A stretch of 64,000 nt of DNA, taken from Primulina eburnea. Taxonomy: Eukaryota; Streptophyta; Magnoliopsida; Lamiales; Gesneriaceae. A model generated the notes under the pieces. That model searched no databases. It was given only the letters and a program-made list of their open reading frames with translations, and was not told the origin of the DNA. A program made the position numbers and the translations under genes. How positions within the stretch are numbered: position 1 is the stretch's first letter; every line of letters begins with the position of its first letter. The DNA lies in assembly GCF_022965805.1 (NCBI RefSeq), contig NC_133117.1, positions 13,292,183-13,356,182 of the forward strand, in the 5' to 3' direction. Below are positions 5,402 through 63,785 of this stretch, in pieces.

Positions 5402-6250
5402 ATCAAGTTTTTAATGAAGAACAACAAGAAATTGTTGATGAACCAAACAACCTAAGGAGATCTACTAGAATTAGAAGATCAGCTATATCTAGTGATTATG
5501 TTGTGTATTTACAAGAATCGGACTTTAACATTGGAGCCGAAAATGATCCTGAAACGTTTTCACAAGCCATGAGTTGTAATGAGTCAAAACTATGGTTTAA
5601 TGCTATGAAAGAAGAGATGAATTCTATGGCAGTTAATGGAGTCTGGGAACTTGTTCAGTTGCATGATGGTGTAAAACCCATTGGATGTAAATGGGTCTTC
5701 AAAACAAAGAAAGACTCATTAGGCAACATTGAAAGGTATAAAGCAAGACTTGTTGCTAAAGGATTCACTCAGCAGGAAGGAATCGACTACAAGGAGACTT
5801 TTTCTCCTGTATCTAAGAAAGATTCTCTTCGTATCATTCTAGCATTAGTTGCACATTTTGACTTAGATTTACAACAAATGGATGTGAAAACAGCTTTTCT
5901 CAATGGAGAACTAGAGGAAGAGGTTTATATGAAACAACCTGAAGGATTCTTCTCTAGTAATGGTGAGCAATTGGTTTGTAAGCTTAAGAAATCTATATAT
6001 GGATTGAAACAAGCTTCCCGTCAATGGTATTTAAAATTTCATGATGTTATCTCTTCATTCGGATTCGTTGAGAACTTCATGGATCAATGTATATACCAGA
6101 AGGTCAGTGGGAGCAAGATTTGTTTCCTTATTCTATATGTGGATGATATATTACTTGTAACCAATGATAAGGGTCTGTTATATGAGGTGAAACAATTTCT
6201 CTCTAAAAACTTTGATATGAAGGATATGGGCGATGCATCTTATGTCATTG
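5314..6250 (+). pseudogene. pol: Copia reverse transcriptase, first half, cut at an insertion
   Basis: This is the copia-type reverse transcriptase. Recognisable blocks are KARLVAKGFTQQEGIDY, DVKTAFLNGELEEEVYMKQP, KSIYGLKQASRQWYLKFH and the catalytic ILYVDDILL. The frame is open from about 5314 up to DMKDMGDASYVI and is then cut at 6250 within the codon after isoleucine. The coding sequence resumes at 15365 with GIKIHRDR. The five bases CATTG are duplicated on both sides of the insertion. Confidence 0.92.
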
Positions 6251-7026
6251 TGTTGGAACTTTTAAAGTTCTCAATCTTGATTTTGATGTTAACAAAACTT
6301 TTTATTGTGTTTCTAACATTACTCAAGTGTGAAGTTGCAAACACAAGAAGCAAGCTGAAACTGAATTATGCACAAACTGAATTTCTGGCGAGCTTCGGTG
6401 TTTTGATGATATCTCTCAACTGAATTATCCAAATGACAATCCTCCAACTGTACTGATTAGAAAACTCAATTTGGAACAAATCATATTTCACGTCAGTTGG
6501 GCAAAATCGGATGTTATCATGGTCTAACTGATCGCTCAATTACCGAACTGATCACATGAAAACAGCAATCAGTTGTGTTTGAGCAGCTGCCGTATTTTGG
6601 TCATATCTCTCAGCTCGGTTATCGAAACTAAGCGATTCAGTATGCGTTGGAAAGATAAGATCTACAAATCATTCTTATAAGTCAAAGTCTGAATCGAAGC
6701 TTATGATGCTGATAAATGACGATGAAGCTACTGGTTCTGCACAAACTGAACTAGCTGATTTCAGCACACCAGCTGAACCAGTCCAACTGAACCAGCTGCT
6801 GACCTGCTGACCAACCAACTGAACTGAACCAGCAGTTGACCAAGTGAACTGAACCAGTCCGACTGAATAACCAGTTGAGTTAACCAGAGTTGACCAGTTG
6901 ACCAGAGTTGACCAGTCGGGAAAATGCCCAGCAAGCTGAATTTGACCGTTGCAATCTCGGAAACAGTACAGAAACTTTTCAAACGGTCATATTCTTGTGT
7001 CTAACGTATATATCAGTGTTGGAGCC

Positions 7027-15364: not shown

Positions 15365-16235
15365 CATTGGCATTAAGATACATAGAGACAGAATTCGAGG
15401 TATTATAGGTCTGTCTCAAGAAACCTATATCAACAAAGTTTTAGAGAGATATCGGATGAAAGATTGTTCACCAAGTATAGCTCCCGTTGGGAAAGGCGAT
15501 AAATTCAATTTGAGCCAATGCCCAAAGAATGATCTAGAGCGGGAACAAATGAAAAACATTCCTTATGCTTCTGCTGTCGGAAGCTTGATGTATGCTCAGG
15601 TTTGCACTAGACCTGACATTGCATTTATTGTTGTGATGTTGGGAAGATATCAGAGTAATCCAGGTTTAGACCATTGGAAAGCTGCAAAGAAAGTAATGAG
15701 GTACCTTCAAGGGACCAAAGATTATATGCTTATGTTCAGACGAACTGAGAATTTTGAAGTAATTTGCTACTCTGATTCAGACTACGCTGGCTGCATTGAC
15801 TCAAGAAAATCCACTTCAGGATATATTTTCATGCTAGCTGGTGGAGCTGTATCTTGGAGAAGTGCAAAGCAGACATTGACTGCTACTTCCACTATGGAAG
15901 CTGAGTTCGTATCTTGTTTTGAGGCAACCTCACATGGTGTATGGTTGAAGAGTTTCATTTCAGGGCTTAGAATTATGGATTCTATATCTAGGCCATTAAG
16001 AATATATTGTGACAATTCAGCTGCTGTTTTTATGGCTAAAAATACCAGAAGTGGTAGTCGAAGCAAGCACGTCGACATTAAGTATTTAGCCATACGAGAA
16101 CATGTTAAAGATAAAACCATGGTTATCGAGCACATTAGCACTGAATTGATGATTGCAGATCCTTTGACTAAAGGCATGCCACCATTGAAATTCAAGGATC
16201 ATACAGAAAGAATGGGACTTGGTTCTTTTATGTAA
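15365..16235 (+). pseudogene. pol: Copia reverse transcriptase end and RNase H
   Basis: This continues the polyprotein cut at 6250. It starts with the duplicated CATTG and then GIKIHRDR in the same phase as the upstream RT. Blocks seen are YINKVLERYRMKDC, PYASAVGSLMYAQ, RPDIAFIV, the RNase H acidic motif CYSDSDYAGC, and TATSTMEAEFVS. The terminal DPLTKGMPP box is typical of copia RNase H. The frame is open to TAA at 16233-16235. This half is better preserved than gag and integrase. Confidence 0.93.
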
Positions 16236-20557: not shown

Positions 20558-22993
20558 TCAATCATCAACCTCCTCAATCAGCGGTTGAATTATTGGCCTA
20601 GGCGGCACGATAACAGTAGGCTTGAGGATTCTTTCCAACACCGAGCTTGGAGTTGGTGTTTTCATGTACAATGGGTTTTCTTTCTTGCTAATGCTACAAA
20701 TTTTGATAGGCCCAAAATCCCCATTGTAATATCTGGCCTCCACAGCACTTGCACTTGTTTGGAACGGCTGTCCATCCGCTTCTACAACCTCCACATCATC
20801 CTCTTTCCAAAATAACAACAGTTGGTGCATTGAGGATGGGATGCACTGGTTTGCATGGATCCAATCTCTGCCTAACAATGCTTGGAAGTTGGCGGAAGAG
20901 TTCACCACAAAAAATGCACATAAAGATGGCATGCTCCCTACAGTAACATCAGCGGGGAATACCCCAATGGTCTTGGTGGTTTCCCCTGTAAATGCAGCAA
21001 CCGAAACTTCCGAAGGAATCAAGTCTTCTTCAGTTTTGCCTATACTTTTTAACATTCTTACTGGAAGAACATCCACAGCTGAACCATTGTCAATCAACAC
21101 CCTAGACACTGGCTTCCCATTCACGTGGGCTTTGATGTACAACGGCCTTATGTGCTTGGTCATGGCCAGTGTAGGCTTTTCCAGTATCACCTGTTGAGGC
21201 TTATTTGAGTGGCCCTCCTGGATAATCACTCTTGAACTCCCTTCAGAGAGTTTATTTGCATACTCTTTCTTTTGCACTGATTTCTGGGGCATCAACTCCC
21301 CATCCTCTTCTTCCGCCATTTTAAATCTCTCGAATAGTATCACCACTCCTGTGGCACAATCCACTGTGATGTGAAACTCTCCAACGCAAAAATTGATTGT
21401 TTTTCCTCTTTGATCATCTTCTTCGCTTAACAAATCATCACCATCCTCCACAAACATATCCTCAGTATCCGATCTTCCAAACTTGGATTTACTCCTCACT
21501 GGACTCCTTGCGACTGGAATATCATTTGTGGGTTCATTTCTCAACTTAGCGGACTCCTCTCTTCTTGCAATCGCTCTTTCTCTCAACAGCCATCTCTTTT
21601 GAGTTCTAGTTGGTGGCCTAGGGAACTTTTTGTGTTGGGCCACTCTCCAAGACTCATTGAACTCCCCTCTGGCTGGAAGGACGTATCTCGGCTTTGCTCT
21701 TCGAAGCTCAATATTTTTTCCTTTTGACATTTCATATGGGCGCCGCTCTATGCACTGATCAGCTGATACTTTCCTGGTTTCCACCCTTCGTGACTCTACT
21801 TCATATGTATTTCTCCTGTCCCAGTACCTTTGGTGCTGATCATGAAATGATTCCCCTCTGAACTTTTGATTCTCATGCACTGATCTTTCAAGGAAATGTT
21901 GGTTCCTCGGCCTAGAGGCCGCGGATTCGCCAACATTCCTAGTTAAATGCTTCTGAAATGTTCTTAGTCGATCGGTATTATACCTTTCAGTAACTTCATA
22001 CAATTGACATTTTGGGATCCAACATTTCTTGATTATTTGCTCTTTCACTGCAAAGGATCGACTTCTTCTCTCATTGAGGAGATCCCTCAAATCTGTCACA
22101 TTCACATTGACCAAAGCTACTGGGGGAAAACGATCATCATCCACCGCCATAGACTCCTGTTTGTTAGGAAACTTCACGACTCCCTTGTTAATCCTGTCCT
22201 GCAAAATGTTCTTGAACGCCCAACAAGAGTTAGTAGCATGATTGTAGGAGTTGTGGTACTTACAATACTCCCGTACTTTCAGCTCTTCTATGGGTGGCAT
22301 CCTGTGATCAGCTGGAAAAGTGATGAACTTTTCTTTTACCAAGAAATCAAAAACTTCTTCGGTCTTTGATACATCAAATGTATAATGCATGTCTTTGGGG
22401 AGTTGGGAGTTGTTCTTTGTTTCAAGTTCTGCTGACTTCTTTTTTAGCAGAGGAACTGTGCAAGACCCAGCTGATCGAATCTCTGCCAATGCCACGTCTT
22501 CCACCTCTTGATAATAAGATCCCATAGCAATTTTCTTCTTGTATGACTCTTCCCGCAAGAGTTCTTCGTATTCAGCCACTTTGGCAGCAAGTTCAAAGAA
22601 ATCCCTGAACTCCATACCTTGGAACTTCTTCCTTAATTCAAAATCCAGCCCTTTTTGTGCCATCTGCACGAACTCTGTCTCAGGTAAGAACACCTTGCAT
22701 CTATTCTTCATCTTTTTGAACCTGTCGATAAAATATTCTACAGACTCTCCTTTTTTTTGAGTGACTCTGGATAAGTCGGCAATGCACACTTCTGGCTCTG
22801 TTCTATAGAATTGAATGTGAAATTGTCTTTCCATTTCTTGCCAATTCATCACTGAATTTCTGGGGAGTGAAGCATACCAAGCGAATGCAGTCCCAGTGAG
22901 GGAATTAGGGAATAGCCGCAACTTTAGATTGTTGAAGTTCTCCAAGTTGGCTAATTCCCCGCACTGGATGGTGAATCTGGCTATATGTTCCAT
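20558..22993 (-). CDS. gag: Gag-protease polyprotein of element D, 811 codons
   Basis: This is a long uninterrupted frame of a Tat/Retand-like gypsy element. The capsid part opens with MEHIARFTIQCGEL and includes AFAWYASLP, FHIQFYRTEP and SVEYFIDRFKKMKNRC. A zinc-binding-like CKYHNSYNHATNSC follows at about residues 242-255. After a long basic Arg-rich region comes the aspartic protease core with VLIDNGSAVDVLP and, later, LLGRDWIH. The listed ATG is probably internal: the true gag begins at 23893 and reaches here through a TAG at 23000-23002. After PLIEEVDD the frame stops. A different frame (20296-20577) then continues with GKEVAATS-like linker sequence that normally leads to RT. No RT follows. 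Confidence 0.88.
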   Translation of the reverse strand: MEHIARFTIQCGELANLENFNNLKLRLFPNSLTGTAFAWYASLPRNSVMNWQEMERQFHIQFYRTEPEVCIADLSRVTQKKGESVEYFIDRFKKMKNRCKVFLPETEFVQMAQKGLDFELRKKFQGMEFRDFFELAAKVAEYEELLREESYKKKIAMGSYYQEVEDVALAEIRSAGSCTVPLLKKKSAELETKNNSQLPKDMHYTFDVSKTEEVFDFLVKEKFITFPADHRMPPIEELKVREYCKYHNSYNHATNSCWAFKNILQDRINKGVVKFPNKQESMAVDDDRFPPVALVNVNVTDLRDLLNERRSRSFAVKEQIIKKCWIPKCQLYEVTERYNTDRLRTFQKHLTRNVGESAASRPRNQHFLERSVHENQKFRGESFHDQHQRYWDRRNTYEVESRRVETRKVSADQCIERRPYEMSKGKNIELRRAKPRYVLPARGEFNESWRVAQHKKFPRPPTRTQKRWLLRERAIARREESAKLRNEPTNDIPVARSPVRSKSKFGRSDTEDMFVEDGDDLLSEEDDQRGKTINFCVGEFHITVDCATGVVILFERFKMAEEEDGELMPQKSVQKKEYANKLSEGSSRVIIQEGHSNKPQQVILEKPTLAMTKHIRPLYIKAHVNGKPVSRVLIDNGSAVDVLPVRMLKSIGKTEEDLIPSEVSVAAFTGETTKTIGVFPADVTVGSMPSLCAFFVVNSSANFQALLGRDWIHANQCIPSSMHQLLLFWKEDDVEVVEADGQPFQTSASAVEARYYNGDFGPIKICSISKKENPLYMKTPTPSSVLERILKPTVIVPPRPIIQPLIEEVDD

Positions 22994-30652: not shown

Positions 30653-31694
30653 TCAGTCAAAGCTATTCTTAACAAATGCATTAGTATATATCAATACATA
30701 TGCAATAGAATCATAAAGAATAGTACCTGTTACTATATCATCAAGTGCCTCTTGGGTCTGTTCCTCGGTCACTCCCACCAGATTGTCCTGATCCCTGAAA
30801 TCTTCGGGAATCTCTCTGGTGACAAACTCTAGCAAAGTGCCCCGGCTGTCGACAGATACGACAACTAACAGTAACTTCCTGGCATAGCTCCGTGGGATGT
30901 CTTCCTCCGCAAGTGCTGCAATACACTCCAGTATAACTCGGGCTAGAACCACTGGAGCTAGAGGAACCACTTCCCAACTTCTTAAATGGCTTCTTTCGAG
31001 CTTTCAGCACATCTTGCTTCCCACTCGTACTGCCGTGATCATATCGAAGAGGGGATTGCTGTGTCTGAGGTGGCTTCACACACAACCTTGTCAATTGTCT
31101 AATTAGACTTGCCTCAGCTCTCTTCGCTCTACTCAAGACATCAGCAAAATGGTAAGGTCGCTGCAGATTCAAAAATGCAACTACCTCTGAGTTCAACCCT
31201 CTGATGAATTGATTTACTATAGCTTCATCATTTCCAGCTAGATGAGGAGCAAAACGCATTAGAGTCGAGAATTTAGCAATATATTCGTCAATATTTAGCT
31301 GCCCTTGGCTCAAATTCTCAAACTCTAATTTCTTGTCCTCTCGGTACGAAGCTGAGAAAAATCTTCGATAGAAATCAGTTCTGAATATTTCCCACGAAAT
31401 CACTGTACCTCTCTGTGCCCACATTCTTCTACTGGTAATCCACCAACTCCTGGCGGCTTCTCGTAACTAATAAGGCACCATTTTAACTCTCTGTTCATCT
31501 GTACAATCAAGTAAATCGAACAAGATTTCTATATCATCAAACCAGTTCTGACAATCTTCAGATGTCTCGGTACCACTCAAAACCGGCGGCTGTAATAACT
31601 GAAACTCTTTCATCTTTTCTTCTAGCTGAGTTTCTAATGCATCTATCTGTTCAGACGAGGTACTACCCTTTTCTGGAAATCTCCGAGGCGGTAT
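30653..31694 (-). pseudogene. gag: Gypsy element B gag with protease vestige
   Basis: The minus-strand frame begins at 31694 with a codon ATA where related gags have ATG (following residues PPRRFPEKGSTS). It is open except for TAG at 31467-31469. Capsid blocks match element A: REAARSWW, FYRRFFSASYREDKK, LSQGQLNIDEYIAKFSTL and FIRGLNSEVVAFL. A zinc region has CSTCGGRHPTELC and CRICRQPGHFARVC. After a frameshift near 30760 another phase reads VTGTILYDSIAYVLIYTNAF. This is the same dead protease vestige as in element A, with the catalytic triad replaced by YTNAF. Confidence 0.85.
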
Positions 31695-49666: not shown

Positions 49667-50876
49667 TTAAGTCTTACCGAACAACTCTGGGTAGCGAAGT
49701 CTCATATCTTCCTCTGACTCCCAAGTGGCCTCTTCCACTGATTGGTTTAGCCAACGAACTTTGACTAGCTTAGTCACTTTGTTCCGGAGCCTATGCTCTT
49801 TCCTGTCTAGGATTTGGACTGGTTTTTCCTCATAAGACAAGTCTGGAGCCAGTTGCAACGGTTCATAACTCAGAATGTGCGAAGGATTAGCCAGATATTT
49901 CCTCAGCATCGAGACATGGAATATATTGTGTACCCCGGCCAGATTTGGCGGAACGGCAACACAATAGGATAGTGTCCCAACTCTGTCAAAAATTTCAAAC
50001 GGTCCAATGAACCTCGGACTCAACTTGCCTCTTTTCCAGAATATAATCACCCCCTTCATAGGTGCTATCTTGACGAAAACGTGATCACCAACGGCAAATT
50101 CGAGATCTCTCCTCCTCGTCAGTTCATCTGAAAAAAGAAAAAGTGAAAGATGTATCAGCATAACTCTTCTGACGACTCTGGGCGGTCTTCATTCTATCAC
50201 GAATCTTGACCACCACGTCTGCAGTCTGCTGAACTATTTCTGGTCCAAGTTCCGCTCTTTCTCCGACCTCGTCCCAATGAACTGGTGATCTACACTTTCT
50301 TCCATATAAGGCCTCGTAAGGAGCCATACCTATTGATGATTGGAAGCTGCTGTTGTAAGTAAATTCCACTATAGGTATCTTAGACTCCCAAGTTCCCTGA
50401 AAATCAATTATACACGCTCGAAACAAGTCCTCTAAAATCTAAATCACTCGCTCAGACTGGCCATCTGTCTGCAGGTGAAAAGTTGTACTGAAAAGCAACT
50501 TTGTCCCCATGGCTGCATGTAAGCTCTTACAGAAGGACGAAGTGAATCTCGGGTCCCTGTTGGACACAATTGAAACTGGGAATCCATGCAGACGGACTAT
50601 CTCCCTGATATAAAGCTCTGCATATTGCGACATGGAGAAAGTCGTCTTCACTGGCAAGAAATGCGCTGACTTGGTGAGTCGGTCCACTATAACCCAAATA
50701 GCATTAAAACCTCTGACTGATTTAGGCAACCCAACCACAAAATCCACAGTAATATTCTCCCATTTCCACTCTGGGATCGGGAGTGGCTTAAGCATCCCTG
50801 CTGGTCTCTGATGCTCTGCCTTCACCTGCTGACAAGTGAGGCATTCTGACACAAATCGACGGATGTCTCTCTTCAT
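49667..50876 (-). pseudogene. pol: Tekay integrase with chromodomain, broken
   Basis: From 50876 downward come a CLTCQQVKAEHQRPAG zinc-region end, core blocks WENITVDFVVGLP and IVDRLTKSAHFLP, then VSIVSNRDPRF and HLQTDGQSERVI. The second catalytic aspartate (usually SDRDPRF) is Asn here. A stop at about 50438 is followed by the YNSSFQSSIGMAPYEALYGR block. A frameshift with an insertion at 50124-50161 leads to GDHVFVKIAPMKG and a C-terminal chromodomain with VKVRWLNQSVEEATWESEEDM. The chromodomain identifies a chromovirus; its role is targeting of integration to heterochromatin. The frame ends at 49667. Confidence 0.92.
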
Positions 50877-52022
50877 CCCTGGCCACCCATAAAAAATCTA
50901 GAGATCCTTATACATCTTGGTACCTCCTGGATGGATAGAACACGGAGATGCTTGTGCCTTTGTCAAAATATCCTGTCTGATCGATTCACCACTAGGCACC
51001 CACTTTCTACCTCTGTATCTCACAATCCCATCTGACACTGTATAAAGAACACTGCCCTTGGCCTCATCTTTCAGTCTCCATTTCTGTAGCTGCTCATCTG
51101 AAGACTGTCCTGCCCGGATACGATCTAGAAAATCAGATTTGACTGTCAGATTAGACAGCCTAGGAGCTCTGCCCTCACGATAAATCTCTAGACCAAACTT
51201 TTGAATCTCAGACTGAAGAGGTCTCTGCACTGACAACTGCGCTACAACTTCCACCTTCCTGCTCAATGCGTCTGCGACAACATTAGCCTTTCCCGGATGG
51301 TAGCTAATTTCGTAGTCGTAATCCTTCACCAGCTCTAACCACCGTCTCTGTCTCATAATCATCTCTTTCTACGTGAAGAAATATTTGAGACTCTTATGAT
51401 CAGTTAAAATCTAACATTTCTCGCCGTATAGGTAGTGTCTCCAAATTTTCAGTGCGAAGACAACGGCGGCTAACTCAAGATCATGCGTCGGGTAGTTCTT
51501 CACGTGCACTTTCAACTGCCAGGAAGCATAAGCTATGACCCGACCCTGCTGCATCAATACTGCGCCTAACCCGAGCTTAGATGCATCGGTATATAACACA
51601 AAGTCTCCTTGCCCTGATGGCATGGCTAGCACCGGCGCAGAAATAAGAGCTTGCTTCAACGTATCGAAGCTCTTCTGACATTCATCACTCCACACAAATT
51701 TGGCATTTTTCTTGGTTAGTGAAGTGAGCGGCACTGCTATGGACGAAAACCCCCGAATAAACTTTCGGTAGTAACCCGCTAAACCCAAAAAGCTGCGGAT
51801 TTCAGATGCATTCTTTGTCTCAACCCATTCCTTGACAGCTGCTACTTTCGTTGTATCCACCTCGATTCAACTGCTAGATACTATATGCCCCAAAAACGCT
51901 ACTTTCTGCATCCAAAACTCGCACTTACTGAACTTCACAAATAACTTGCGACTCTGCAAAATCTGTAAAATTGTCCTCAAGTGCTGGCTGTGCTCCTCAT
52001 TGCTCTTCGAGTATATAAGGAT
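50877..52022 (-). pseudogene. pol: Tekay RT end, RNase H and linker, broken
   Basis: Starting at the Athila junction, ILIYSKSNEEHSQHL continues into SRKLFVKFSKCEFW and FLGHIVSS, then a stop near 51866. Next come [14 protein letters not shown] and the RNase H blocks [40 protein letters not shown], two stops between 51363 and 51411, and YHPGKANVVADALSR. The linker to integrase (QAHSSPCSIHPGGTKMYKDL-like) ends at another stop near 50897. The order is normal for Ty3/gypsy. Confidence 0.9.
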
Positions 52023-52027
52023 GTAAT

Positions 52028-53410
52028 TGATAAACATAAAAATTGTACATTATTTAAATGTTTTATAATATAGGTTCGATAAGACAAGAATAAACTTGGC
52101 GTTGCAAATGGGATTAAGATGATTCTTGCACCTGTAGAAAGTTGATGTTAATATCTACCATAACGGTGGCAAGCATGAGATAAAAATCTTCTCACAAGTG
52201 GGATCAAATTAAGCAACAAATAAAGTTACCAAAGGAGTGATAGTTTTACCATGCTCTAGTATTTTGACCATATCTCTCAAATTACTTGGTCAAATGGTTT
52301 GAAAAAAATACCACAACTAGACAACTCAATTATCCACATGTTTCTTTTTATGTGAAGAAGCAAATTCGGAGAAGAAGATTTTCAAAAGTGATGTGTAATA
52401 TAATATAATATATTGGAACACCAATGAAGACTTTTGTGTAAAAAAATAATTATTTTATTTGTGGTTGTCTCCCCAAATTTGGCTATAAATAGGGGTGCAT
52501 TGTAATGTATTGAGATATCCTTCATTCTATGAACAAACCTTTGAGTTCATAATATTTCTCTCTATATTTTTCCTTTATTTCTTCATTTAAATATAATTAG
52601 CATGATAATTTCATATTCAAAGTTTTACACTTTGAATAATGAATAGCTAACTTCCTAAAGTTGAGATGAAAAGGTGAAACTCTTGGAATGATAATAAGGT
52701 TACTAAAATGTAAGAATCTATGTTTTATATTATTTAATCATTATTTATTGTTTATGTTATATTTATTTCTTTAAGTATTTTTATACCCTACTTATAAGTG
52801 GGAGTTTTGATTTATTGTTGCTATATGTTACACTAAATTCTTGGAACCATTTAAGTGTTAGTTTGGTATTACCAACCATTTAAAGTGGGAACATTGATTT
52901 ACTATATATAAATATATCATAATATTAATTTCTCGGTACCATTTAAATGTTAGTTTGGTTTTACCAACCATTTAAAGTGGGAACCTTGATTTAGTGTTTA
53001 CAAATATATATAGCACAATAAATACTTGACCACATTTATAAGTTTTAGTATATATTATATACTTATAAGATAATAATATATAACATAATATAAGTATGAT
53101 TATTTAATATATTCGAACTATTTTATTAAGTGGATTTTAATATTGTTCGTTAATGTTAACTTTATTAAAATACCAAGAGTAGATCCTTTAATCTCAACTA
53201 CTTAAATAAAAATTTGAACAATTAAAATTTACCCATTCAAGATTCAAACAATTAAAATTAAAAAGAAACAAAAACAAAAACAAAACAAAAAGACATTGTA
53301 GTGGACTTGTAATTACCTTAGCTTCCCTGTGGATACGATATTCGGACTCACCGAATTATACTACTTGTGGACAACCTGCTCTTGGGAGTGCAACAATCAA
53401 AGTCGCAACA
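52028..53410 (+). repeat. 5' LTR of the Athila-type element
   Basis: It starts TGATAAACATAAAAATTG and ends AGTCGCAACA. TATAAATAG at 52484-52492 is the likely core promoter. Relative to the 3' LTR it lacks about 100 bp near position 52060. Confidence 0.94.
52484..52492 (+). promoter_or_regulatory. TATA box of the Athila LTR
   Basis: TATAAATAG in the context TTGGCTATAAATAGGGG, repeated at 61806-61814 in the 3' LTR. It should drive the element transcript. Confidence 0.7.
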
Positions 53411-53416
53411 AGTTTT

Positions 53417-53434
53417 TGGCGCCGTTGCCGGGGA
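53417..53434 (+). promoter_or_regulatory. Primer binding site, tRNA-Asp
   Basis: TGGCGCCGTTGCCGGGGA is complementary to the 3' end of plant tRNA-Asp, the usual primer of Athila elements. It begins seven bases after the LTR. Confidence 0.92.
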
Positions 53435-53600
53435 AGTATAATTTAATTTCAAGTCTATTTAATTTCCTTTATAGTTTATTTTTTTTTATTTGAATTTTCA
53501 TTGCTTTTGTGTGTTTTTATTCTTTTGCATTTGCATGAGCATTTGGTCACATACACTTAGTGCTCGACTCATTCGAAATAACCCTTTATTTTTACAAAAC

Positions 53601-55315
53601 ATGGCGGAAGAACCCATCCAAGAAAATGAAGATGAAATTTAATCTCAACATGATCATGATAGACGAAGAACACTTAGAGATCACATGAATCCTACACGTA
53701 CTAGTGCACCTTCATGTCTAGTTTTTCCCCCTGATGCATCTCATTTTAATTTTAAGCCTGGTATTATCCAACTTTTACCCAACTTTCATGGCTTAGATTC
53801 TGAAAATCCATACATGCATTTACGAGAGTTTGAAGAAGTGTGCAACACATATAATGATCTAAATTGTAGCATGAACACCATTCGACTTAATCTTTTTCCT
53901 TTTTCTTTAAAAGATAAAGCTAAAACTTGACTACAAAATCTTAGATCGGGATCCATTCGAACTTGGGATGAATTGCAACAAAATTTTTTGAAAAAGTTTT
54001 TTCCATCGCATAGAACAAATTCTTTCAAAAGGCAAATCCTCACTTTCACTCAAAAACAAGAGAAACTTTTTATCAGTGTTGGGATAGATATAAAGAATTG
54101 CTTAATCTTTGTCCTCATTATGGTTTTGAAATTTGGAGAGTTGTTTCTCAATTTTATGAAGGCTTAACACTTAAAGATATGCAAATGGTTGAATTTATGT
54201 GTAATGGAACATTTGAAGATAAAGATCCAAACGAGGCAATTGAGTATCTCGATTCATTAGCTGAAAATGCTCAAAATTGGGACACAATAGGTACAATTGA
54301 ACCATCAAACAAGATTCAATCTCCTACATCTGGTGGAGGTATGTACACTCTCAAAGATGAACATGATCTTCAAGCTAGATTTACCTCTTCGGCAAGAAAA
54401 GTTGAGGCACTTGAATTGAAAAAGAATGGTCAATTAAAATCTGTTCAAGAAATTGTGTGTCATATCTGTGATACAAGTGATCATTTTACAAAAGATTGTC
54501 CCACTTTGCCCTCTTTTAAAGAATGTCTCCATGAATAAGCCAATGTTTTGAACAATTTCAAAAGGCCAAATTTTGAACCATTTTCTCAAAATTACAATCC
54601 AAGTTGGCAAAATCATTCAAATTTTAGTTGGAGGAATGATAATGCTGCACAATTTCCGCAACCACACTTTCAAAATCAACAAAATTTTCAAAATTATGCA
54701 CCTTATGTTCCTCCACCTAAAAGGAATTTGGAAGATTTATTGAATTCTTTCATTGCAAAGCAAGAGTCTATCAATACTCAAACTGCTCAAAACATGACAG
54801 ATTTGAAAGATACTCTTGCTAAATTTGCATCTGCACTTAATGTTCATGAAAAAGGTAAATTTCCTTCACAACCTCTGCCTAATCCCAAGGATCATCATTC
54901 ACAAACTGGAACTTCTAGAACTCAACCGATGGATCAGGTAAAATCTGTTATTACCATTCGAAGTGGTAAGGTTGTGGAAAAATACATTCTTGAACCTTGT
55001 GAAGATGATGATAAATCAACTTCAAAGGGTAAGAAAGTGGAACCCATAACTTGCGAAGAGGAGGTTCAACAGACAGTGTCATCACCATTCCCTCATGCAT
55101 TGAAAAATACAAAAAAATCAAATTTGAATTCTGATATATATGATATTTTTAAACAAGTAAAAGTTAAAATTCCTTTATTAGATGCAATAAAACAGGTACC
55201 ATCATATGCGAAATTTTTGAAAGACTTGTGCATTGTGAAAAGAAAATTGAATGTGAAAAAGAAAGCATTTTTAGCCGAACAAGTAGTGCAATCATTCAAA
55301 ATAATAATACTTTGA
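53601..55315 (+). pseudogene. gag: Athila gag, broken
   Basis: The start ATG at 53601 gives MAEEPIQENEDEI, then TAA at 53640-53642. The same phase continues with FKPGIIQLLPNFHGL, ENPYMHLREFEEVC and FPFSLKDKAKT up to TGA at 53928-53930, then TWDELQQNFLKKFFPSHRT. A frameshift near 54070 leads to a phase carrying FYEGLTLKDMQMVEF and a degenerate zinc region CHICDTSDHFTKDC. TAA follows at 54536-54538, then the Asn/Gln/Phe-rich NYNPSWQNHSNFSWRN block typical of Athila gag. The last open piece ends at 55315, and a frameshift near 55275 joins the protease phase. Confidence 0.9.
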
Positions 55316-56217
55316 AATACAAAGACCCAGGTTGTCCTACTATTTCATGTATTATTGGAGAACGAAAGATTAAAAAAGCCTTGCTTGATCTTGGAGCTAG
55401 TGTGAATTTACTTCCATATTCAGTTTATCAAGAACTCAATCTAGGCGAGTTAAAATCTACTTCGTTAACGCTTTTACTTGCTGATAGATCTGTTAAAGTG
55501 CCAAGAGGTATGGTAGAAGACGTGTTGGTCCAAGTTGATAACTTTGTATATCCTGTCGATTTCATAGTTTTAGATACACAACCTATTGAAGCTTGTAATG
55601 CAATTCCTGTAATTTTAGGTCGTCCATTTTTAGCAACTTCTAATGCTCTTATAAATTGCAGGAATGGAATAATGAAGTTTTCATTTGGTAACATGACCTT
55701 GGAGCTTAATATTTTTAATCTTTGTAAGCAACCACATGACAAAGGAGATGAAAGTGAAGATGAAAATCTTATTGAAACTCTTGTGGAAGAAAACATTCAA
55801 GAAGGGAGTACTCGTGATCAATTAGATATTTGTTCAATTGAAACTGTTAAAGAAAATATTGAAATTTATCTTGATGATTTTATTAGGTATCACTCGTTAC
55901 CAGGATCAGAGAAAGAATTTGAGGCGAAATATGAGAACAAAGACGAACCACCCATATTGGAGTTAAAACTCTTGCCAGAAGAATTGAAGTATGCATTTCT
56001 TGGAGAAGATGAAACATATCCGGTGGTAATTTCTTCCAAACTATCAAGTAATCAAGAAGGTAAATTAGTTGATATGCTTAAAAGACATAAAAATGCAATT
56101 GGTTGGACACTAAAAGATCTTAAGGGCATTAATCCACTAATTTGCACTCACAAAATTCACTTAGAAGAAAATGCTAAAACATCTCAACAACCACAAAGGA
56201 GATTAATCCACGCATGA
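55276..56217 (+). pseudogene. pol: Athila protease and linker to RT
   Basis: The protease core is ALLDLGASVNLLPYSVYQEL. In this lineage the catalytic triad reads DLG. The flap and C-terminal blocks LADRSVKVPRGMVEDVLVQV and PVILGRPFLATSNALI are present. An acidic linker follows, then the RT entry sequences PEELKYAFLGEDETYPVVIS and IGWTLKDLKGINPLICTHKI. A one-base loss in an A run near 56205 ends this phase before the RT fingers. Confidence 0.9.
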
Positions 56218-56890
56218 AAGATGTTGTGAAAAATAAAGTTCTCAAACTACTTGATGTTGGGATTATCTACCCTATTTCTGATAGTAAGTGGGTAAGCCCA
56301 ACACAAGTAGTTCCAAAACAATCTGGCATCATAGTGATAAAAAATGAAAAAGGTGAATTTTTAACAAGTCGAGTCCCATCTAGTTGGCGGATGTGTATTT
56401 ATTATAGAAAATTAAATGACGCCACTGGAAAAGATCATTTTCCATGACCATTTTTGGATCAAATTTTAGAAAGAGTAACAGGTCATCTATACTACTGTTT
56501 TCTTGATGGATATTCAGGATATTATCAAATTTCTATTGCACTCGGAGATCAAAATAAAACTACATTCACATGTCCTTTTGGAACATTTGCATTTAGAAGG
56601 ATGCCATTTGGATTATGCAATGTCCCAGCAACATTTCAAAGATGTATGCTAAGAATTTTTTGCGACATGGTTGAAAATTGTTTGGAAATTTTCATGGATG
56701 ATTTAACTGTCTTTGGGATACATTTGATAATTGTCTTGAAAATTTGGAAAGAGTTTTAAAAAGATGCGAGGAAAAAGGTCTTATTTGAAATTGGGAAAAA
56801 TGTCATTACATGATTACTTCTGGAATTGTTTTGGGACATGTCGTGTCATCTCATGGAATTGAAGTTGATAAAGCAACGACGATCGTTCTT
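56214..56890 (+). pseudogene. pol: Athila reverse transcriptase, broken
   Basis: RT blocks: KNKVLKLLDVGIIYPISDSKW, VPKQSGI and WRMCIYYRKLNDAT. TGA follows at 56445-56447, then FLDGYSGYYQISIA, TFTCPFGTFAFRRMPFGLCN and the catalytic FMDDLTVFG. A phase break comes right after it, then TAA at 56757-56759. Weak traces of the connection ([18 protein letters not shown] in another phase) reach about 56880. There the sequence jumps to the end of RNase H, so several hundred bases are deleted. Confidence 0.88.
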
Positions 56891-56892
56891 AT

Positions 56893-57090
56893 TTGATTGG
56901 ATCAACGACTATTGTGTTTACTGATCATTCTGCTATTAGATATTTGTTGACCAAACAGGATGCAAAGCCACGACTGATACGATGGGTTCTGTTGCTCCAA
57001 GAATTTGACATTGTGATCAAAGATAAAAAAAAGAACCGAGAATGTCGTAGCCGATATTTTATCGAGACTATTAACAGGATCATCTTGTGA
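56893..57090 (+). pseudogene. pol: Athila RNase H, C-terminal remnant
   Basis: Only the last third remains: [21 protein letters not shown] and [17 protein letters not shown]. The acidic start of the RNase H fold (YTDAS-like) is missing because of the deletion before 56890. A stop at 57088-57090 ends the piece. Confidence 0.85.
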
Positions 57091-57091
57091 A

Positions 57092-58432
57092 ATGACACCA
57101 ATTAATGATAATTTTCCTGATGAACATCTATTTTCAGGTACTACTACACCTTGGTTTGCTAACATAGTAAATTTTGTTGTGACAGGAAAAATGCCACCGC
57201 AATGGAGTTCCCAAGATAAAATAAAATTTTTGAATGAGGTAAAAAACTTTTATTGGGATGATCCGTATCTGTTCAAGTATTGTCCAGATCAAATTTTTCG
57301 ACGTTGCATACCCGACAATGAGGTAAATATTGTCATTAAATTTTGTCATTCAGAAGCATGCGGAGGACATTTTTCTTCAAAGAAAACGGCTGCAAAAATC
57401 TTGCAGTGTGGATTTTATTGGCTCACTTTGTTTAAAGACACCCACAAAATCTACAAGATCTGTGAAACTTTTCAAAAATTGGGTGCGATTTCAAAAATAA
57501 ACACGATGCCTTTGAATCCTATCATTGAAATTGAAATCTTTGATTTTTGGGGAATTGATTTTATGGGACCTTTTCCACCGTCGTTTGGATACTTGTATAT
57601 TTTAGTTTCAGTTGATTATGTTTTCAAATGGATAGAGGCAATTCCATGTCGAACAAATGATCATAAAATCGTCATCAAATTTTTAAAAGAAAATATTTTT
57701 AGTAGATTTGGAATTCCTTGAGCCCTGGTAAGTGATGGGGGAACTCACTTTGTTAATAAATTATTTGCTTCATTAATGAAAAAATATGGTATTACTCATA
57801 AAGTAACTACTCCTTATCATCCTCAAACAAATGGACAAGTTGAATTAGCTAATAAGGAGATAAAGCAAATTTTGGAAAAAACTGTTAACTCAAATAGAAA
57901 AGATTGGTCTCTGCGACTTAGTGATGCACATTGGGCATATCGAACAACTTTTAAAACATCATTGAATATGTCTCCCTATAGGTTGGTTTATGGAAAACAT
58001 TGTCATTTGCCTGTGGAATTGGAACATAAAGCTTATTGGGCGATCAAAACTTTAAATTTAAGCATGGATGATGCCAACAAATTGAGTAAATTGCAACTTA
58101 ATTAACTTGATGAACTCAGAAATGACGCGTATGAGAATTCAAGGATTTATAAAGCAAAAATCAAGTCATTTCATGATAAAACAATTCTTAGAAAATCTTT
58201 TGAGATTGGTAAAAAAGTTTTGCTTTATAATTCTCGACTTCACATATTCCCAGGAAAATTACGATCAAGATGGACAGGCCCATATATTGTAAAGCATGTA
58301 TATCCTTATGGAGCTGTGGATATTGAAAATCCTAAAAATGGTGATGTTTTTAAAGTGAATGGACAAAGGCTTAAACCATTTTTGAAAAATGAAATCTTTC
58401 AAGAAGAGTTTATTTCCCTTTCTGATCCTTAA
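57092..58432 (+). pseudogene. pol: Athila integrase, two in-frame stops
   Basis: The frame is in one phase throughout. An N-terminal region has HSEACGGHFSSKKTAAKIL, but the paired cysteines of the zinc motif are degraded (ICETF). The catalytic core keeps the first D in FWGIDFMGPFPPSFGY, the second D in VSDGGTHF and the E in [16 protein letters not shown] at 57719-57721 sits just before VSDGG, and TAA at 58103-58105 after KLSKLQLN. The C-terminal GKKVLLYNSRL and RWTGPYIVKHVYPYGAV blocks follow to TAA at 58430-58432. There is no chromodomain, as expected for Athila. Confidence 0.92.
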
Positions 58433-58681
58433 ATTTTTTTGTTGCATTTAATTTTGTTTGTTTTTATTTCAGGTTTCTTTAATCTTTTTATTTCCCGATT
58501 AAATGGCGGATAACGGTACTCCGTCACTCTCATAGTCGGTTAAATCAGTTTCCCACAATTGCTGATACAAAAATAAAAAAAAAAATCATTTCTTTTCCTT
58601 TCAAAATGGATGAAATTCTCTCAAAAAATTGTAAATATTTTCCCTCTGTTTCTGAAAATGTTCTAAGAAAAAATTTATGCA

Positions 58682-59151
58682 GGAAGGTGTGAAAGATTGA
58701 GATTGCTAATGCAAAAAGGAATTCCAGAAGATATTCTTCTTCTATTAGAAGCTAAGGTCCGATTAGGAGGAGAAGTTCCACAATCATTGCTCATTTGGTA
58801 TTTGCCTGGATTAGAAAAAAGAACTTATGCGAAAAAACGAAGGGCCAAAAGGTTAGGGGTTTCTCATAAGTGTGCAAGATGGACTTGTGACAAACGATGC
58901 AGATCTTTGGGATGTGTTTCCGATAACAGAGAAGATAAAATCGGTTTATTAAGAATGGACTGAGTAAGGAATCTTTAGATAACATCTTATTGACTCTTGA
59001 GACGCATTCTAGTGGACATGTGCATATTGAACTTCTCCGTTTATGGAAACAATTCCAAGATGAGCGTCATAGTCTTGGGAATCTGACTAAAAAAGACCAT
59101 GTTTACAAATTTATAAGAAAATTGGATGGGAAGCATATCCTCGACTCATAA
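58682..59151 (+). pseudogene. Unknown cysteine-rich frame between integrase and LOG
   Basis: I do not recognise this protein. It begins after a possible acceptor TTTATGCAG and reads LRLLMQKGIPEDILLLLEAK, then a basic stretch (KKRRAKRLG) and a cluster HKCARWTCDKRCRSLGC that might bind metal. After a single phase change near 58945 it continues as NGLSKESLDNILLTLETH and KKDHVYKFIRKLDGKHILDS to TAA at 59149-59151. The two halves together would be about 155 residues. Position suggests an accessory frame of the element, or captured cargo like the LOG gene downstream. Confidence 0.5.
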
Positions 59152-59303
59152 AAGGCGTTGAAGCCGTTTCTGGACGTAAAACCAGAGGAAAATTGTGAGC
59201 TACAATCACACTACTGTTTATATGCATGTGTGTCATTATTGTTTTTACTATTTATTCTGTTTACAGCTGTGACCCATAGTTTTGTTATGATAACATATTA
59301 CCC

Positions 59304-59339
59304 CTATAAAATCTCTCATCTTTCTCTCTATTTTCGCAG
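59304..59339 (+). promoter_or_regulatory. Possible TATA box and splice acceptor before LOG
   Basis: CTATAAAAT at 59304-59312 lies about 50 bases before the LOG start. A pyrimidine-rich stretch ending TTTTCGCAG (AG at 59338-59339) lies 22 bases before it. Either could let LOG be expressed apart from gag-pol, the first as a promoter and the second as the acceptor of a spliced subgenomic RNA. This is inference from motifs only. Confidence 0.4.
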
Positions 59340-59360
59340 ACCAAAAAAGAAAGTAAAAAC

Positions 59361-59999
59361 ATGGCTGGCTCCTCTACACAAAAATTGAAAAATATTTGTG
59401 TATTTTGTGGGTCGAGTCCTGGAAAAAATGAAGTGTTTGTAGAAGCAGCGAATAATCTTGGAAAGATATTGGCTGAGAGAAAAATTCATTTGGTATATGG
59501 GGGAGGTAATATTGAGTTAATGGAATCTGTTTCAACATCTGCTCATCTTGGAGGTAGTCAGGTTTTGGGTATTATTCCTACAGCTTTAGCTGAAGGAAAT
59601 ATTACAGGTGTTACGATTGGGGAGGAATTAAAAGTTTCTTCTATGTATGAAAGAATCACTCAAATGATTGAAAATTCTGATGCTTTTATCGCACTACCAG
59701 GTGGTTTTGGTACATTAGAAGAAATTTTTCACACAGTTTCTTGGGCACAACTTAATATCCATAATAAACCTGTGGGCTTGTTGAATATCAATAATTATTA
59801 TGACAGTTTGTTGACATTTCTTGATAAAGCTGTGGAACAGAATTTCATTTCAGAAAATTCACGACGGAAGCTCATCTGTGCTTCGACTGCCGACCAATTA
59901 ATTAATGATTTGGAACCTTTTGTTCATAAGCCTGATTCGATAATAACAAAGATCAATTGGTTGCAATCAAGCAGTAAGAAAATAAAGTTGGATCATTGA
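59361..59999 (+). CDS. LOG: LOG-family cytokinin riboside 5'-monophosphate phosphoribohydrolase
   Basis: LOG enzymes release active cytokinin bases from cytokinin nucleotides in one step, in the cytosol and nucleus. This 212-codon frame has no stop or intron and starts at ATG in a good context (AACATGG). The Rossmann-type fold is complete: ICVFCGSSPG at residues 12-21, LAERKIHLVYGGG near 37-49, VLGIIPTALAEG, SSMYERITQM with the catalytic Arg kept, and the family signature PGGFGTLEE. SWAQLNIHNKPVGLLNINNYY follows. It ends with a basic tail KKIKLDH. Length is normal for plant LOGs, which usually have several introns, so this is a captured mRNA-like copy. The usual GGGxxGLMG reads GGGNIELME, which may weaken substrate binding. 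It lies between integrase and the 3' LTR of an Athila element. Confidence 0.93.
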   Translation: MAGSSTQKLKNICVFCGSSPGKNEVFVEAANNLGKILAERKIHLVYGGGNIELMESVSTSAHLGGSQVLGIIPTALAEGNITGVTIGEELKVSSMYERITQMIENSDAFIALPGGFGTLEEIFHTVSWAQLNIHNKPVGLLNINNYYDSLLTFLDKAVEQNFISENSRRKLICASTADQLINDLEPFVHKPDSIITKINWLQSSSKKIKLDH

Positions 60000-61235
60000 T
60001 TCAAAAGTCGTGCATTGGTTTGCGTTTGTTTCAGTTTGTTATCTTCAATAAAATTCCAGGTGATATCTCTTTCATTATGTAATTTTTATTAATAGTTATT
60101 TTGACATTAGGGACAATGTCATATTCTGATTGGGGGGAGAACAAAATTATAAAAAAAAATTAAAAAAAATTAAAAATAAAAATATAAAAATATATATATT
60201 ATTTTATAATAAATTCATGTTTATTGCTTGTATCTTTGTAATTTTTGCAAAAATATCATACATTACATATTTGAAAGGTTTAAATTAGAAAATGTATTAA
60301 TCTATCCAAGGATGTTTAATTTTTATTTGAAAAAAAAAGTCAATTTTAATAATCTGGGCAATATAAAAATATGATTTATGAAATCTTTTTGAGTGATTAA
60401 CCATTGTGATAAAATCAGGTATTAAAGTATATGGCCCAAGATATACCTCATAAGAGTGCTTAAAATTTTAAACTCACACATATTTTGTGAGTGAGTGGAG
60501 AGGACTGAGAAAACAGCTTTCGAACCTTTATTGATCATGAGAGAGACTATCTATTGTTTAGATCTTGAGTTCTTATTTGGAAAAAAAAATGATATTTCCT
60601 GGAAAAAAAAAAAGAGGAAAAAATACAAAAAGAAAGATATTGAAGATCTATGTAATTTTTAAGTTATATGCTACGACCCATATATCTCTCATAAAAAAAA
60701 AAAAAGAAAGATAGAAATTTATTGTACAAATTAAATAAATATGTGGTCAAGAAGCATAAACTTAGTCTGATTCCATGATGTTATGAAAAAAAAGAAAAAA
60801 ATATATTAGGAAAAAAATATATAATAAGAACAACTAGATTTTGCATCAATGGATTTTCTATCTTTTAATTAGTTTGGCTCGTCTATCTGTCTGCATTCTG
60901 TAAACCATTTTTCTGAGCATTTATCTGTATTCCAACTCCATGAGAGAAATCGTTGCCATAAATTGAAACATTTATTAACCTGTGAGGATATGGAGTTGAG
61001 ACTCTTAATAGGAATTTCTGAAGACCGTGTACATTTAACTACCTGAAATAAGCTTTGAATCGATCATCTCAAATTATTTCATAAATTATAATTATGATGA
61101 TCTTGATATAACTTTGACAGTTTTCAAATTTAATTTAAACACTTAGATAGTTCTGATTACATTTCTATTTAAATTAAGCAATATGTTTTGTATTGCTATT
61201 AACGCTTAAATTGCTAGGGACTAGCAATAAGCTGG
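60000..61235 (+). other. Non-coding 3' region of the Athila element
   Basis: Very A/T-rich with many A runs and no open frame. A block at 60103-60140 with ACATTAGGGACAATGTC followed by TTGGGGGGAG is typical of Athila 3' regions and may be a second purine tract. Near 60057 TTCCAGGTGATA could be another splice acceptor. Confidence 0.6.
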
Positions 61236-61245
61236 TTGGGAGGTG
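61236..61245 (+). promoter_or_regulatory. Polypurine tract of the Athila element
   Basis: TTGGGAGGTG abuts the TGATAAAC start of the 3' LTR. Confidence 0.85.
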
Positions 61246-62731
61246 TGATAAACATAAAAATTGTACATTAATTAAATTAATTATAATATAAATAAATAGT
61301 TTTTGTTTTATTAAATGTTTAAATATTATATGTTTCATAATAAATTGTATAAAATATAATTTGTTGTGTAATTACAAGTTTTTACTATTTTTTACATGTT
61401 CGATAAAACAAGAATAAACTTGGCGTTGCAAATGGGATTAAGATGATTCTTGGACCTGTAGAAAGTTGATGTTAATATCTACAATATTGGTGGCAGGCAT
61501 AAGATAAAAATCTTCTCACAAGTGGGATCAAATTAAGAAACAAATAAAGTTACCAAATGAGTGACAGTTTATCATGCTCTAGTATTTTGACCATATCTCT
61601 CAAATTACTTGGTCAAATGGTTTGAAAAAAATACCACAACTAGACAACTCAATTATCCACATGTTTCTTTTTATGTGAAGAAGCAAATTCGGAGAAGAAG
61701 ATTTTCAAAAGTGATGTGTAATATAATATAATATCTTGGAACACCAATGAAGACTTTTGTGTAAAAAAATAATATTTTATTTGTGGTTGTCTCCCCAAAT
61801 TTGGCTATAAATAGAGGTGCATTGTAATGTATTGAGATATCCCTCAGTCTATGAACAAACCTTTGAGTTCATAATATTTCTCTTTATATTTTTCCTTTAT
61901 TTCTTCATTTAAATATAATTAGCATGATAATTTCATATTCAAAGTTTTACACTTTGAATAATGAATAGCTAACTTCCTAAAGTTGAGATGAAAAGGTGAA
62001 ACTCTTGGCATGATAATAAGGTTACTAAAAGGTAAGAATCTATGTTTTATATTATTTAATCATTATTTATTGTTTATGTTATATTTATTTCTTTAAGTAT
62101 TTTTATACCCTACTTATAAGTGGGAGTTTTGATTTATTGTTGTTATATGTTACACTAAATTCTCGGAACCATTTAAATGTTAGTTTGGTATTACCAACCA
62201 TTTAACTTGGATTCCTTGATTTACTATATATAAATATATCATAATATTAATTTCTCGGTACCATTTAAATGTTAGTTTGGTTTTACCAACCATTTAAAGT
62301 GGGAACCTTGATTTAGTGTTTACAAATATATATATAGCACAATAAATACTTGACCACATTTATAAGTTTTAGTATATATTATATACTTATAAGATAATAA
62401 TATATAACATAATATAAATATGATTATTTAATATATTGGAACCATTTTGTTAAGTGGATTTTAATATTGTTCAATGTTAACTTTATTAAAATACCAAGAG
62501 TGGATCCTTTAATCTCAACTACTTAAATAAAAATTTGAACAATTAAAATTTACCCATTAAAGATTCAAACAATTAAAATTAAAAAGAAACAAAAACAAAA
62601 ACAAAACAAAAAGACATTGTAGTGGACTTGTAATTACCTTAGCTTCCCTGTGGATACGATATTCGGACTCACCGAATTATACTACTTGTGGACAACCTGC
62701 TCTTAGGAGTGCCACAATCAAAGTCGCAATA
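61246..62731 (+). repeat. 3' LTR of the Athila-type element
   Basis: 1486 bp. It ends GTCGCAATA, where the 5' LTR has GCAACA, so the terminal CA has mutated to TA. TATA box at 61806-61814. It carries about 100 bp near 61285-61395 that the 5' LTR lacks. Confidence 0.93.
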
Positions 62732-62736
62732 GTAGT

Positions 62737-63785
62737 CAATGAATACTATGACGAATTGATCGAGGAACGACTGAAATACTCGGTGCATGAGATCCATGAA
62801 AATTTCTGGAGCATTTGTCAATCCAAATGGCATTACCAAGAACTCGTAATTCCCATATCTAGTCCTGAAAGCTGTCTTGTGGACATCAGCATCCTACACT
62901 TTCAGCTGATGATACCCTGATCGAAGATCTATCTTGGAGAACACGGTAGCTCCCTACAACTGATCAAACAAGTCTTCGATTCTAGGAAACGGGTACTTAT
63001 TCTTGATCGTTACCTTGTTCAGCTCACGGTAATCGATGCACAGTCTCATGCTTTCGTCTTTCTTTTTCACAAAGAGCACTGGTGCGCCCCACGATTAGAA
63101 ACTCGGGCGGATAAACTCCTTGTCTAAGAGCTCCTGAATCTGCTGCTTAAGTTCTAACATCTCTGCTGGAGCTAATCTGTACGGTGCCTTAGAGATTGGC
63201 ACCGTGCCTGGCATGAGATCGATTGCAAACTCCACCTCTCTATCTGGTGGAAGGCCTGCGACGTCGTCTGGAAAGACGTCTGGGAAATCTCTGACTACTG
63301 GCACCCTTGATACAGAAGGAATGGGCACGTCCGGTGCTGAGATAATGCTGGTCAAGAAGGCCTGACACCCCTTCGAAATGAGTCTACATGCCTGCATGCA
63401 AGAGATGACGCGCGGGGAACTCCTCCATCTGGCTGGCTCAAAAATAAACTGCTCCATGCTCAATGGTCTGACTAACACCAATCTCTTCTGAAAGTCGATA
63501 AGAACTCTGTTCTTAGTCAGCCAGTCCATTCCCAATATGATGTCGAATTCTGGCATCGGCAATAGAATTAAATCTTCATATACTAGGTGGCCATGCAGTT
63601 CTAGATCGATATCTCTGACCACACTAGTAGCTAACAGCTCTTCTCCTGATGGGACTCTCACTGAAAAGTTCATGTCTAGGCCAATGGACTTGAGGTCCAA
63701 ATGATTAGCAAAAGTCCCCGATATGAAGGAGTGAGTGGCTCCTGAGTCTATCAGTGCAGTTGTGGATAATCTCTTAATAAAAATG
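62737..63785 (-). pseudogene. pol: Tekay protease and first half of RT, broken
   Basis: From 63785 downward: TTALIDSGATHSF with the catalytic DSG, then VYEDLILLPMPEFDIILGMDWL, the end of the protease. RT entry follows with FPDVFPDDVAGLPPDREVEF, DLMPGTVPISKAPYRLAP and LLDKEFIRPSF. A TAA near 63096 interrupts [22 protein letters not shown]. Later come [31 protein letters not shown], another stop, [17 protein letters not shown] and [12 protein letters not shown] at the Athila junction. The phase matches the downstream half at 52022, so the two were one gene before the insertion. Confidence 0.92.

Follow-up and report, generated by a model that had tools for sequence, protein, structure and literature searches.

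Accessory genes are common in plant retrotransposons, and few of them have a known job. In Athila4 and Calypso, an env-like third frame is located between pol and the 3' LTR. Steinbauerova et al. in 2011 reportedly found LOGL4-like frames in two Athila-like elements and extra Athila frames in the 3' region. The LONELY GUY (LOG) frame described here shares with the env-like frame of Athila4/Calypso its place between pol and the 3' LTR and a possible expression by splicing, whereas LOG has the fold of an enzyme. PMC7264820 cites Wright and Voytas 2002.

According to the accessible text of PMC9289625, two Citrus species have, in the consensus sequences of their LTR elements, a YgdH domain, which is that of LOG proteins, and with a looser filter Populus trichocarpa has it too; this agrees with Steinbauerova et al. 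2011. Those elements and ours have in common a LOG-type gene in a gypsy element. Because LOG-type (YgdH) domains have been published in this way for gypsy elements of Citrus and Populus, LOG in plant gypsy elements is already in print and our central claim is not new. The same text reports domain presence and, as far as it goes, does not mention an accessory gene resembling viral nucleic-acid-binding proteins (NABP), a C-terminal LxLxL tail or the absence of the catalytic motif from Citrus copies; nor does it mention Gesneriaceae. The accessory gene, the tail and the Citrus loss were also not found in the literature that we searched, which covered few subscription papers.

Host LOG proteins such as AtLOG3 (2a33) and AtLOG8 (1ydh) share the fold, the active-site motif and approximately 50% identity with the LOG frame of our locus; element-type LOGs, in contrast, form a separate clade and most of the rows examined carry an added tail. 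For the second accessory gene, the closest described protein is the carlavirus NABP. Chrysanthemum virus B p12 is reported, in the accessible part of PMC7588395, to act on RNA silencing or transcription, and in it, as in the element protein, a Cys-rich stretch comes after a basic patch. The element protein differs in being about 182 aa long and in having additional conserved regions at its N- and C-terminal ends. LxLxL is given as an identifying motif of EAR repressors in the available portion of PMC6479872.

The LOG frame and the element around it

We analysed a 64-kb stretch of Primulina eburnea DNA, hereafter the window. Its LOG-carrying element is summarized in Table 1; the LTR ends were read off from the sequence and from repeat comparison. 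Paired LTRs, a target duplication matching at four of five bases and a reverse transcriptase (RT) preceding the integrase place the element in Ty3/gypsy. The more specific Athila-type assignment is putative, suggested by the sequence of the primer site and the length of the 3' region: we take TGGCGCCGTTGCCGGGG to be a tRNA-Asp type primer site, as in Athila. No Athila-named model was among the Pfam matches of the pieces submitted, and the second integrase piece had no Pfam match at 0.001. An A+T-rich stretch separates the LOG frame from the 3' LTR. In their shared part, the two LTRs are identical at 1299 of 1337 bases (K2P 0.029); depending on which of two assumed rates is used, this corresponds to an insertion age of about 1.1 or 2.1 million years.

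Table 1 Features of the LOG-carrying element in the window.
Feature	Position	Strand	Remark
Whole LTR element, 10.7 kb	52028-62731	+	nested in older opposite-strand element
Target duplication, left copy GTAAT	52023-52027	.	from sequence
5' LTR (TG...CA)	52028-53410	+	direct repeats with 3' LTR
Primer-binding-site-like TGGCGCCGTTGCCGGGG	53417-53433	+	6 bases past 5' LTR, from sequence
Gag-pol remains, several broken frames	53601-58432	+	outer limits approximate
Zinc-knuckle-like piece	54098-54538	+	Pfam match under its cut-off
Protease-like piece	55228-56217	+	within gag-pol remains
RT piece	56454-56759	+	within gag-pol remains, before integrase
Integrase piece	57092-57721	+	Integrase_H2C2 (Pfam)
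Integrase piece	57776-58105	+	colinear with integrase frame of contig L001
NABP-like accessory gene relic	58606-59151	+	frame broken; longest open piece 58697-58963
Putative intron	59195-59339	+	GTGAGC at 59195 resembles a donor, TTTTCGCAG with its end at 59339 an acceptor; consensus match only
LOG-holding stretch without counterpart in L001	59222-60042	+	both flanks matched; limits approximate
LOG frame	59361-59999	+	ATG to stop, 212 codons, intact
Polypurine-tract-like stretch	61232-61245	+	directly before 3' LTR; limits approximate
3' LTR	61246-62731	+	about 100 bp longer than 5' copy, extra near start
Target duplication, right copy GTAGT	62732-62736	.	from sequence

When the flanks were joined with one copy of the duplication, the reading was unbroken across the junction, with two stops elsewhere, and the joined outer antisense reading looks by eye like a gypsy reverse transcriptase. 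The target of the insertion was an older element on the minus strand (50001-52027 and 62737-63700), read by eye as gypsy pol. Elsewhere in the window, the frames 3924-6423, 15456-16235, 20558-22993 (minus strand) and 30741-31424 (minus strand) were read by eye as copia pol and gypsy gag/protease; on this by-eye reading of long frames, the window appears to be a retrotransposon-dense stretch. Rfam gave no match at gathering score anywhere in the window.

A reading made from the letters alone (the sequence-only reading) had described a complete LOG frame of 212 codons, located between the Athila integrase and the 3' LTR and inside a target duplication, and both descriptions hold, the duplication matching at four of five bases. 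The frame scored 170.1 bits with TIGR00730 (cut-off 96.35) and 128.7 bits with Lysine_decarbox of Pfam, above the curated cut-off, and the Arabidopsis chain 2a33 matched it at E 6e-62. The predicted structure had a pLDDT of 88.8, and its best PDB match was again 2a33, with a TM of 0.95 by target length. In 500 base shuffles of 58422-61241, the longest ATG frame had 123 codons versus 212 observed. The NCBIfam equivalog CtkRMPhLog scored 122.7 bits, below its cut-off of 300, which lowers only the claim of a proven equivalog.

The LOG occurs once in the 64-kb window (tblastn) and has no internal intron. No poly-A adjoining its stop was seen in the window sequence. The sequence-only reading had named a flanking duplication of LOG's own, together with its being the sole such copy in the genome, as the mark of a secondary insertion; for direct repeats of at least 9 nt around the LOG the answer is that none was found, while a 5-bp duplication falls below the minimum of the tool. 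The motif PGGxGTxEE is present with its catalytic Glu. The glycine-rich nucleotide-binding loop is altered at positions 52 and 55, where at least 90% of 37 chosen relatives have a glycine. The term cytokinin-activating is not supported for the window copy.

LOG as cargo of an LTR-element family

We searched for proteins related to the window LOG. The 7999 candidates sharing most words with it were scored, 7952 passed, and the best 120 were examined; these together with the window LOG are the 121 rows referred to below. All named hosts among the best 120 of 7952 were plants, including Reevesia, Diplodiscus (8 rows), Populus, Xanthoceras, Paulownia, Primulina and Parasponia. Reevesia contributed 12 of these best 120, on 9 chromosomes by their locus-tag names. 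Intact LOG frames of this type were present in hosts of Lamiales, Malvales, Rosales, Sapindales and Malpighiales. Across hosts of several orders, element-type LOGs only about 60% alike keep intact frames. PGGxGT(L/M)EE is kept in 104 of the 121 rows, and 39 columns are invariant among 37 element-type rows picked from them by hand, with Citrus left out. P0122 shares 84% identity with the window LOG over 88% of its length, and P0132 and P0160 share 93% over 46% and 29%, respectively. By eye, the Xanthoceras model P0003 contains a gag-protease-region peptide like that of the window between two LOG pieces.

A second LOG search, limited to longer proteins, gave 49 matches from 1155 candidates. Twelve of the 49 combined pol-type domains and LOG in one annotated protein (three from Primulina eburnea, two from P. 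tabacum, one from P. huaijiensis and six from Citrus sinensis). LOG was downstream of pol in 11 of them; LOG comes first in P0150, so the pol there is probably that of a neighbour. The other 37, among them Citrus models for which no pol domain was listed, merged host-LOG models, fungi and protists, were excluded from the linkage; P0124 and P0135 had no pol domain listed in this search.

In a tree of 56 rows, the 42 LOG rows of element type formed one clade (support 100/98), and ten vascular-plant host LOGs fell apart from it (96/92). The Citrus rows P0131 and P0134 grouped with Citrus element LOGs in this tree. The clade was recovered at 99/98 in a tree of 29 rows (19 element-type, 8 host, one alga and one bacterium) from which the C-terminal tails had been removed. 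For its attachment, p-AU was 0.25 with the LOG3 group and 0.148 with the LOG8 group. The fusion of pol and LOG in Primulina and Citrus models, taken with a single clade distinct from the host LOGs, shows that a family of LTR elements carries LOG as cargo. The sequence-only reading had proposed this, and it is borne out by the fused proteins and by the LOG tree, in which element-type copies form a single clade with bootstrap values of 99-100. From their place in the clade, we infer that the LOGs of Populus, Malvaceae and Rosales are also element-borne, for Populus from print as well.

A relative without LOG was found in a public contig, L001 (3330 bases). It has an integrase frame and, at 1787-2347, an NABP-like frame that is intact, and LOG is absent from its 3330 bases. 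L001 aligned to window positions 56889-59222 at 72.5%, and the NABP-like relic of the window is colinear with 1799-2347 of L001. The next stretch of L001 matched the window at 60042-60138, beyond the LOG, with a score of 59, which was reached by none of 1000 block shuffles and at none of 578 other places in the window. Since L001 matches both sides, the LOG and its short flanks (about 59222-60042) can be present or absent between conserved flanks. The absence in L001, a single contig, fits a gain and a loss of LOG alike. L001 is filed in a Candidatus Nomurabacteria MAG; by content it is a plant gypsy piece, likely a contamination of the public bacterial record.

The window copy represents a single insertion from the LOG-element family and is now decaying, as indicated by its broken gag-pol and NABP-like frames, altered loop, long branch and LTR divergence. 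Its LOG branch in the 56-row tree was 0.053 compared to 0.0018 for P0002. The two proteins differ at 12 residues, of which about 11 lie on the window branch (0.053 x 212), and about 7 replacements are expected under neutral drift since insertion, taken as half of the LTR divergence. Given 12 differences against a neutral expectation of about 7, the window LOG shows no constraint after insertion.

The C-terminal tail and the NABP-like gene

Two features of the family had been overlooked by the sequence-only reading, although it saw the LOG: a tail carried by most relatives and an accessory gene at 58606-59151. Of the 121 rows, 101 carry LxLxL among their final 12 residues, and 96 carry the stricter (D/N)L(T/S/D/N/E)LxL. 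A basic patch lies in the last 20 residues of 108 rows. The alternating leucines persist in the 121 rows, while the residues between them vary. The 101 tails are not 101 independent events, because the rows are related and many come from Populus-like sources; in the tail-free tree, the LxLxL trait must have changed at least twice among the 19 element-type rows. As a crude control, LxLxL occurred in 0 of 59 members of the NABP-like family. The two host LOG models whose ends were visible (P0138 and P0143) had no LxLxL.

The other 20 rows are without LxLxL, and some of these are truncated or merged models. The window LOG ends in KKIKLDH and has neither LxLxL nor a DLNxxP motif. LxLxL is absent from the window subclade (P0002, P0005, P0016, P0026 and P0122), in which the catalytic motif PGGxGT(L/M)EE is kept, and from P0115/P0121; thus, it is not essential to all elements.

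Among 17 Citrus models of the longer-protein search, 14 cover the catalytic motif, and DLATLE(A/T) replaces PGGxGTLEE in all 14, which come from two named taxa and more than one annotation set and may represent fewer than 14 independent insertions. Annotators' introns cut into the LOG domain in several of these models, and the counts concern the motif alone. DLATLE was found in none of the 121 rows of the main search. LxLxL ends 6 of the 17 models. In the alignment, the same Glu is Ala in 5zbk versus 5zbj; 5zbk is, by its title, P. aeruginosa LOG with AMP. Because the catalytic motif is gone while the tail survives in several models, these sequences suggest that the Citrus LOG fold may be kept for something other than catalysis. 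P0130, P0136 and P0137 are among the Citrus models without PGGxGTLEE, and several Citrus models keep LxLxL.

The fused models of Citrus and Primulina contain an NABP-like stretch, located between integrase and LOG or directly before LOG, which Pfam labels as carlavirus nucleic-acid-binding protein in 5 of the 49 rows of the longer-protein search. A search with the Citrus form gave 296 proteins from 323 candidates. Carla_C4 was found in 117 of the best 120 of these 296, many of them also with Viral_NABP, and the named plant hosts among the best 120 were Populus, Acer, Xanthoceras and Citrus. We aligned 39 of the best 120, with a length of about 182 aa. Twenty-one columns were invariant in the 39 rows, and four central cysteines were preceded by a basic patch, C93 being invariant and C85, C88 and C97 nearly so.

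At E 0.01, Carla_C4 matched 37 and Viral_NABP 35 of the 39 proteins, and C6_DPF and AAA_18 matched one member each. The Viral_NABP cut-off was passed by P0196, P0204, P0228 and L001. The broken NABP-like piece of the window scored 16.1 bits with Carla_C4, under the cut-off of 20.9. Three reversed and three shuffled NABP-like sequences used as controls matched no carlavirus or Viral_NABP family. All three reversed controls matched Stress-antifung under its cut-off (best E 2.4e-4), and one shuffled control matched a lentivirus envelope family at E 0.12. As reversed controls reach 2.4e-4, Pfam E-values near 1e-4 are unsafe for this composition. The best value of the family was about 1e-8, and P0196, in which both Viral_NABP and Carla_C4 exceed their curated cut-offs (E 4.5e-8 and 1.5e-6), has better E-values than the control matches. 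The structure model was poor (pLDDT 59.8), and the best viral fold match from that model had E 1.7. The NABP-like profile had no useful match in the PDB (best E 0.33), and scans of viral contigs with the LOG protein, the LOG alignment and the NABP-like alignment found no relative. A viral relation of the NABP-like protein is putative and drawn from the Pfam profiles.

LOG and NABP-like matches on contigs of at least 3 kb (22 x 18) included two pairs of equal contig size, 8723 and 4511, and no pair whose sizes differed by 1 to 10 in either direction, which is suggestive of LOG and NABP-like genes on shared contigs. With all sizes (85 x 114), there were 5 equal pairs versus up to 6 at other offsets, short contigs being uninformative. 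Between the window and L001, dN/dS was 0.196 over the 81 readable codons of the NABP-like gene and 0.081 (208 codons) and 0.128 (109 codons) for the integrase pieces; these values are rough, because synonymous sites are near saturation.

Possible roles of the cargo genes

We think it probable that a eudicot Ty3/gypsy lineage of Athila type carries the frame as its LOG cargo, and that this cargo serves the element by the following mechanism. LOG would be translated from a spliced sub-genomic message, with the donor at 59195 and the acceptor at 59339. A LOG with an intact active site would free active cytokinin in the cells expressing it, and the extra cytokinin would favour dividing, meristematic tissue. 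An element is inherited only through dividing cells, and the release of cytokinin could thus help it. In most lineages, the basic patch and the LxLxL tail would direct LOG to the nucleus and recruit a TOPLESS-type co-repressor; in Citrus, where the enzyme site is gone, only the co-repressor role would remain. The NABP-like protein may act on silencing or transcription, like the carlavirus NABP. The gain to the element would presumably be more dividing cells or less silencing. A narrower form of this explanation is possible, although we hold it tentatively: the element would carry a two-gene module for manipulating the host, made up of an NABP derived from an RNA virus and a LOG with a nuclear TOPLESS tail, the enzyme and the tail having been parted by lineage. 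The enzyme motif without the tail would then be the state of the window's Gesneriaceae-like group and the tail without the motif that of Citrus, with Populus and Malvaceae holding both.

The LOG could instead have been captured once, by read-through or recombination, and carried along with no benefit, its frames being intact because the copies are young. The drift of the window LOG, which is not clearly below the neutral expectation, and the loss of the catalytic motif in Citrus would fit such a passenger. However, LOGs about 60% alike are intact across several orders with 39 invariant columns in the 37 chosen rows, and the leucines of the tail persist while the residues between them vary; we consider mere capture unlikely. 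Alternatively, the LOG fold may be kept as a nuclear repressor through its LxLxL tail, any enzyme activity being incidental; the basic patch in 108 of the 121 rows and the Citrus models (motif lost in 14 of 14, tail on 6 of 17) agree with this. We give this explanation little credence, since PGGxGT(L/M)EE is kept in 104 of the 121 rows and the window subclade has the catalytic motif without LxLxL.

A secondary insertion, in which the LOG is a processed host pseudogene in this single element copy, could explain the intronless frame, and a 5-bp duplication around it would be shorter than the 9-nt search minimum. Against it, LOGs of the same type are joined to pol in other species and form one clade apart from host LOGs, and no poly-A lies beside the stop; the Primulina and Citrus models contradict this explanation, which is very improbable.

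The cargo of these elements is a defined enzyme: structures of its relatives have been solved, the class of its substrates is known, and its tail can be tested. Since the enzyme motif and the tail occur apart from each other in natural lineages, the reason why an element keeps a hormone gene is directly testable. If the NABP-like gene is viral, a retroelement would hold a viral silencing or transcription factor beside a hormone gene. LOG elements occur in accessible trees, namely citrus and, by clade and print, poplar.
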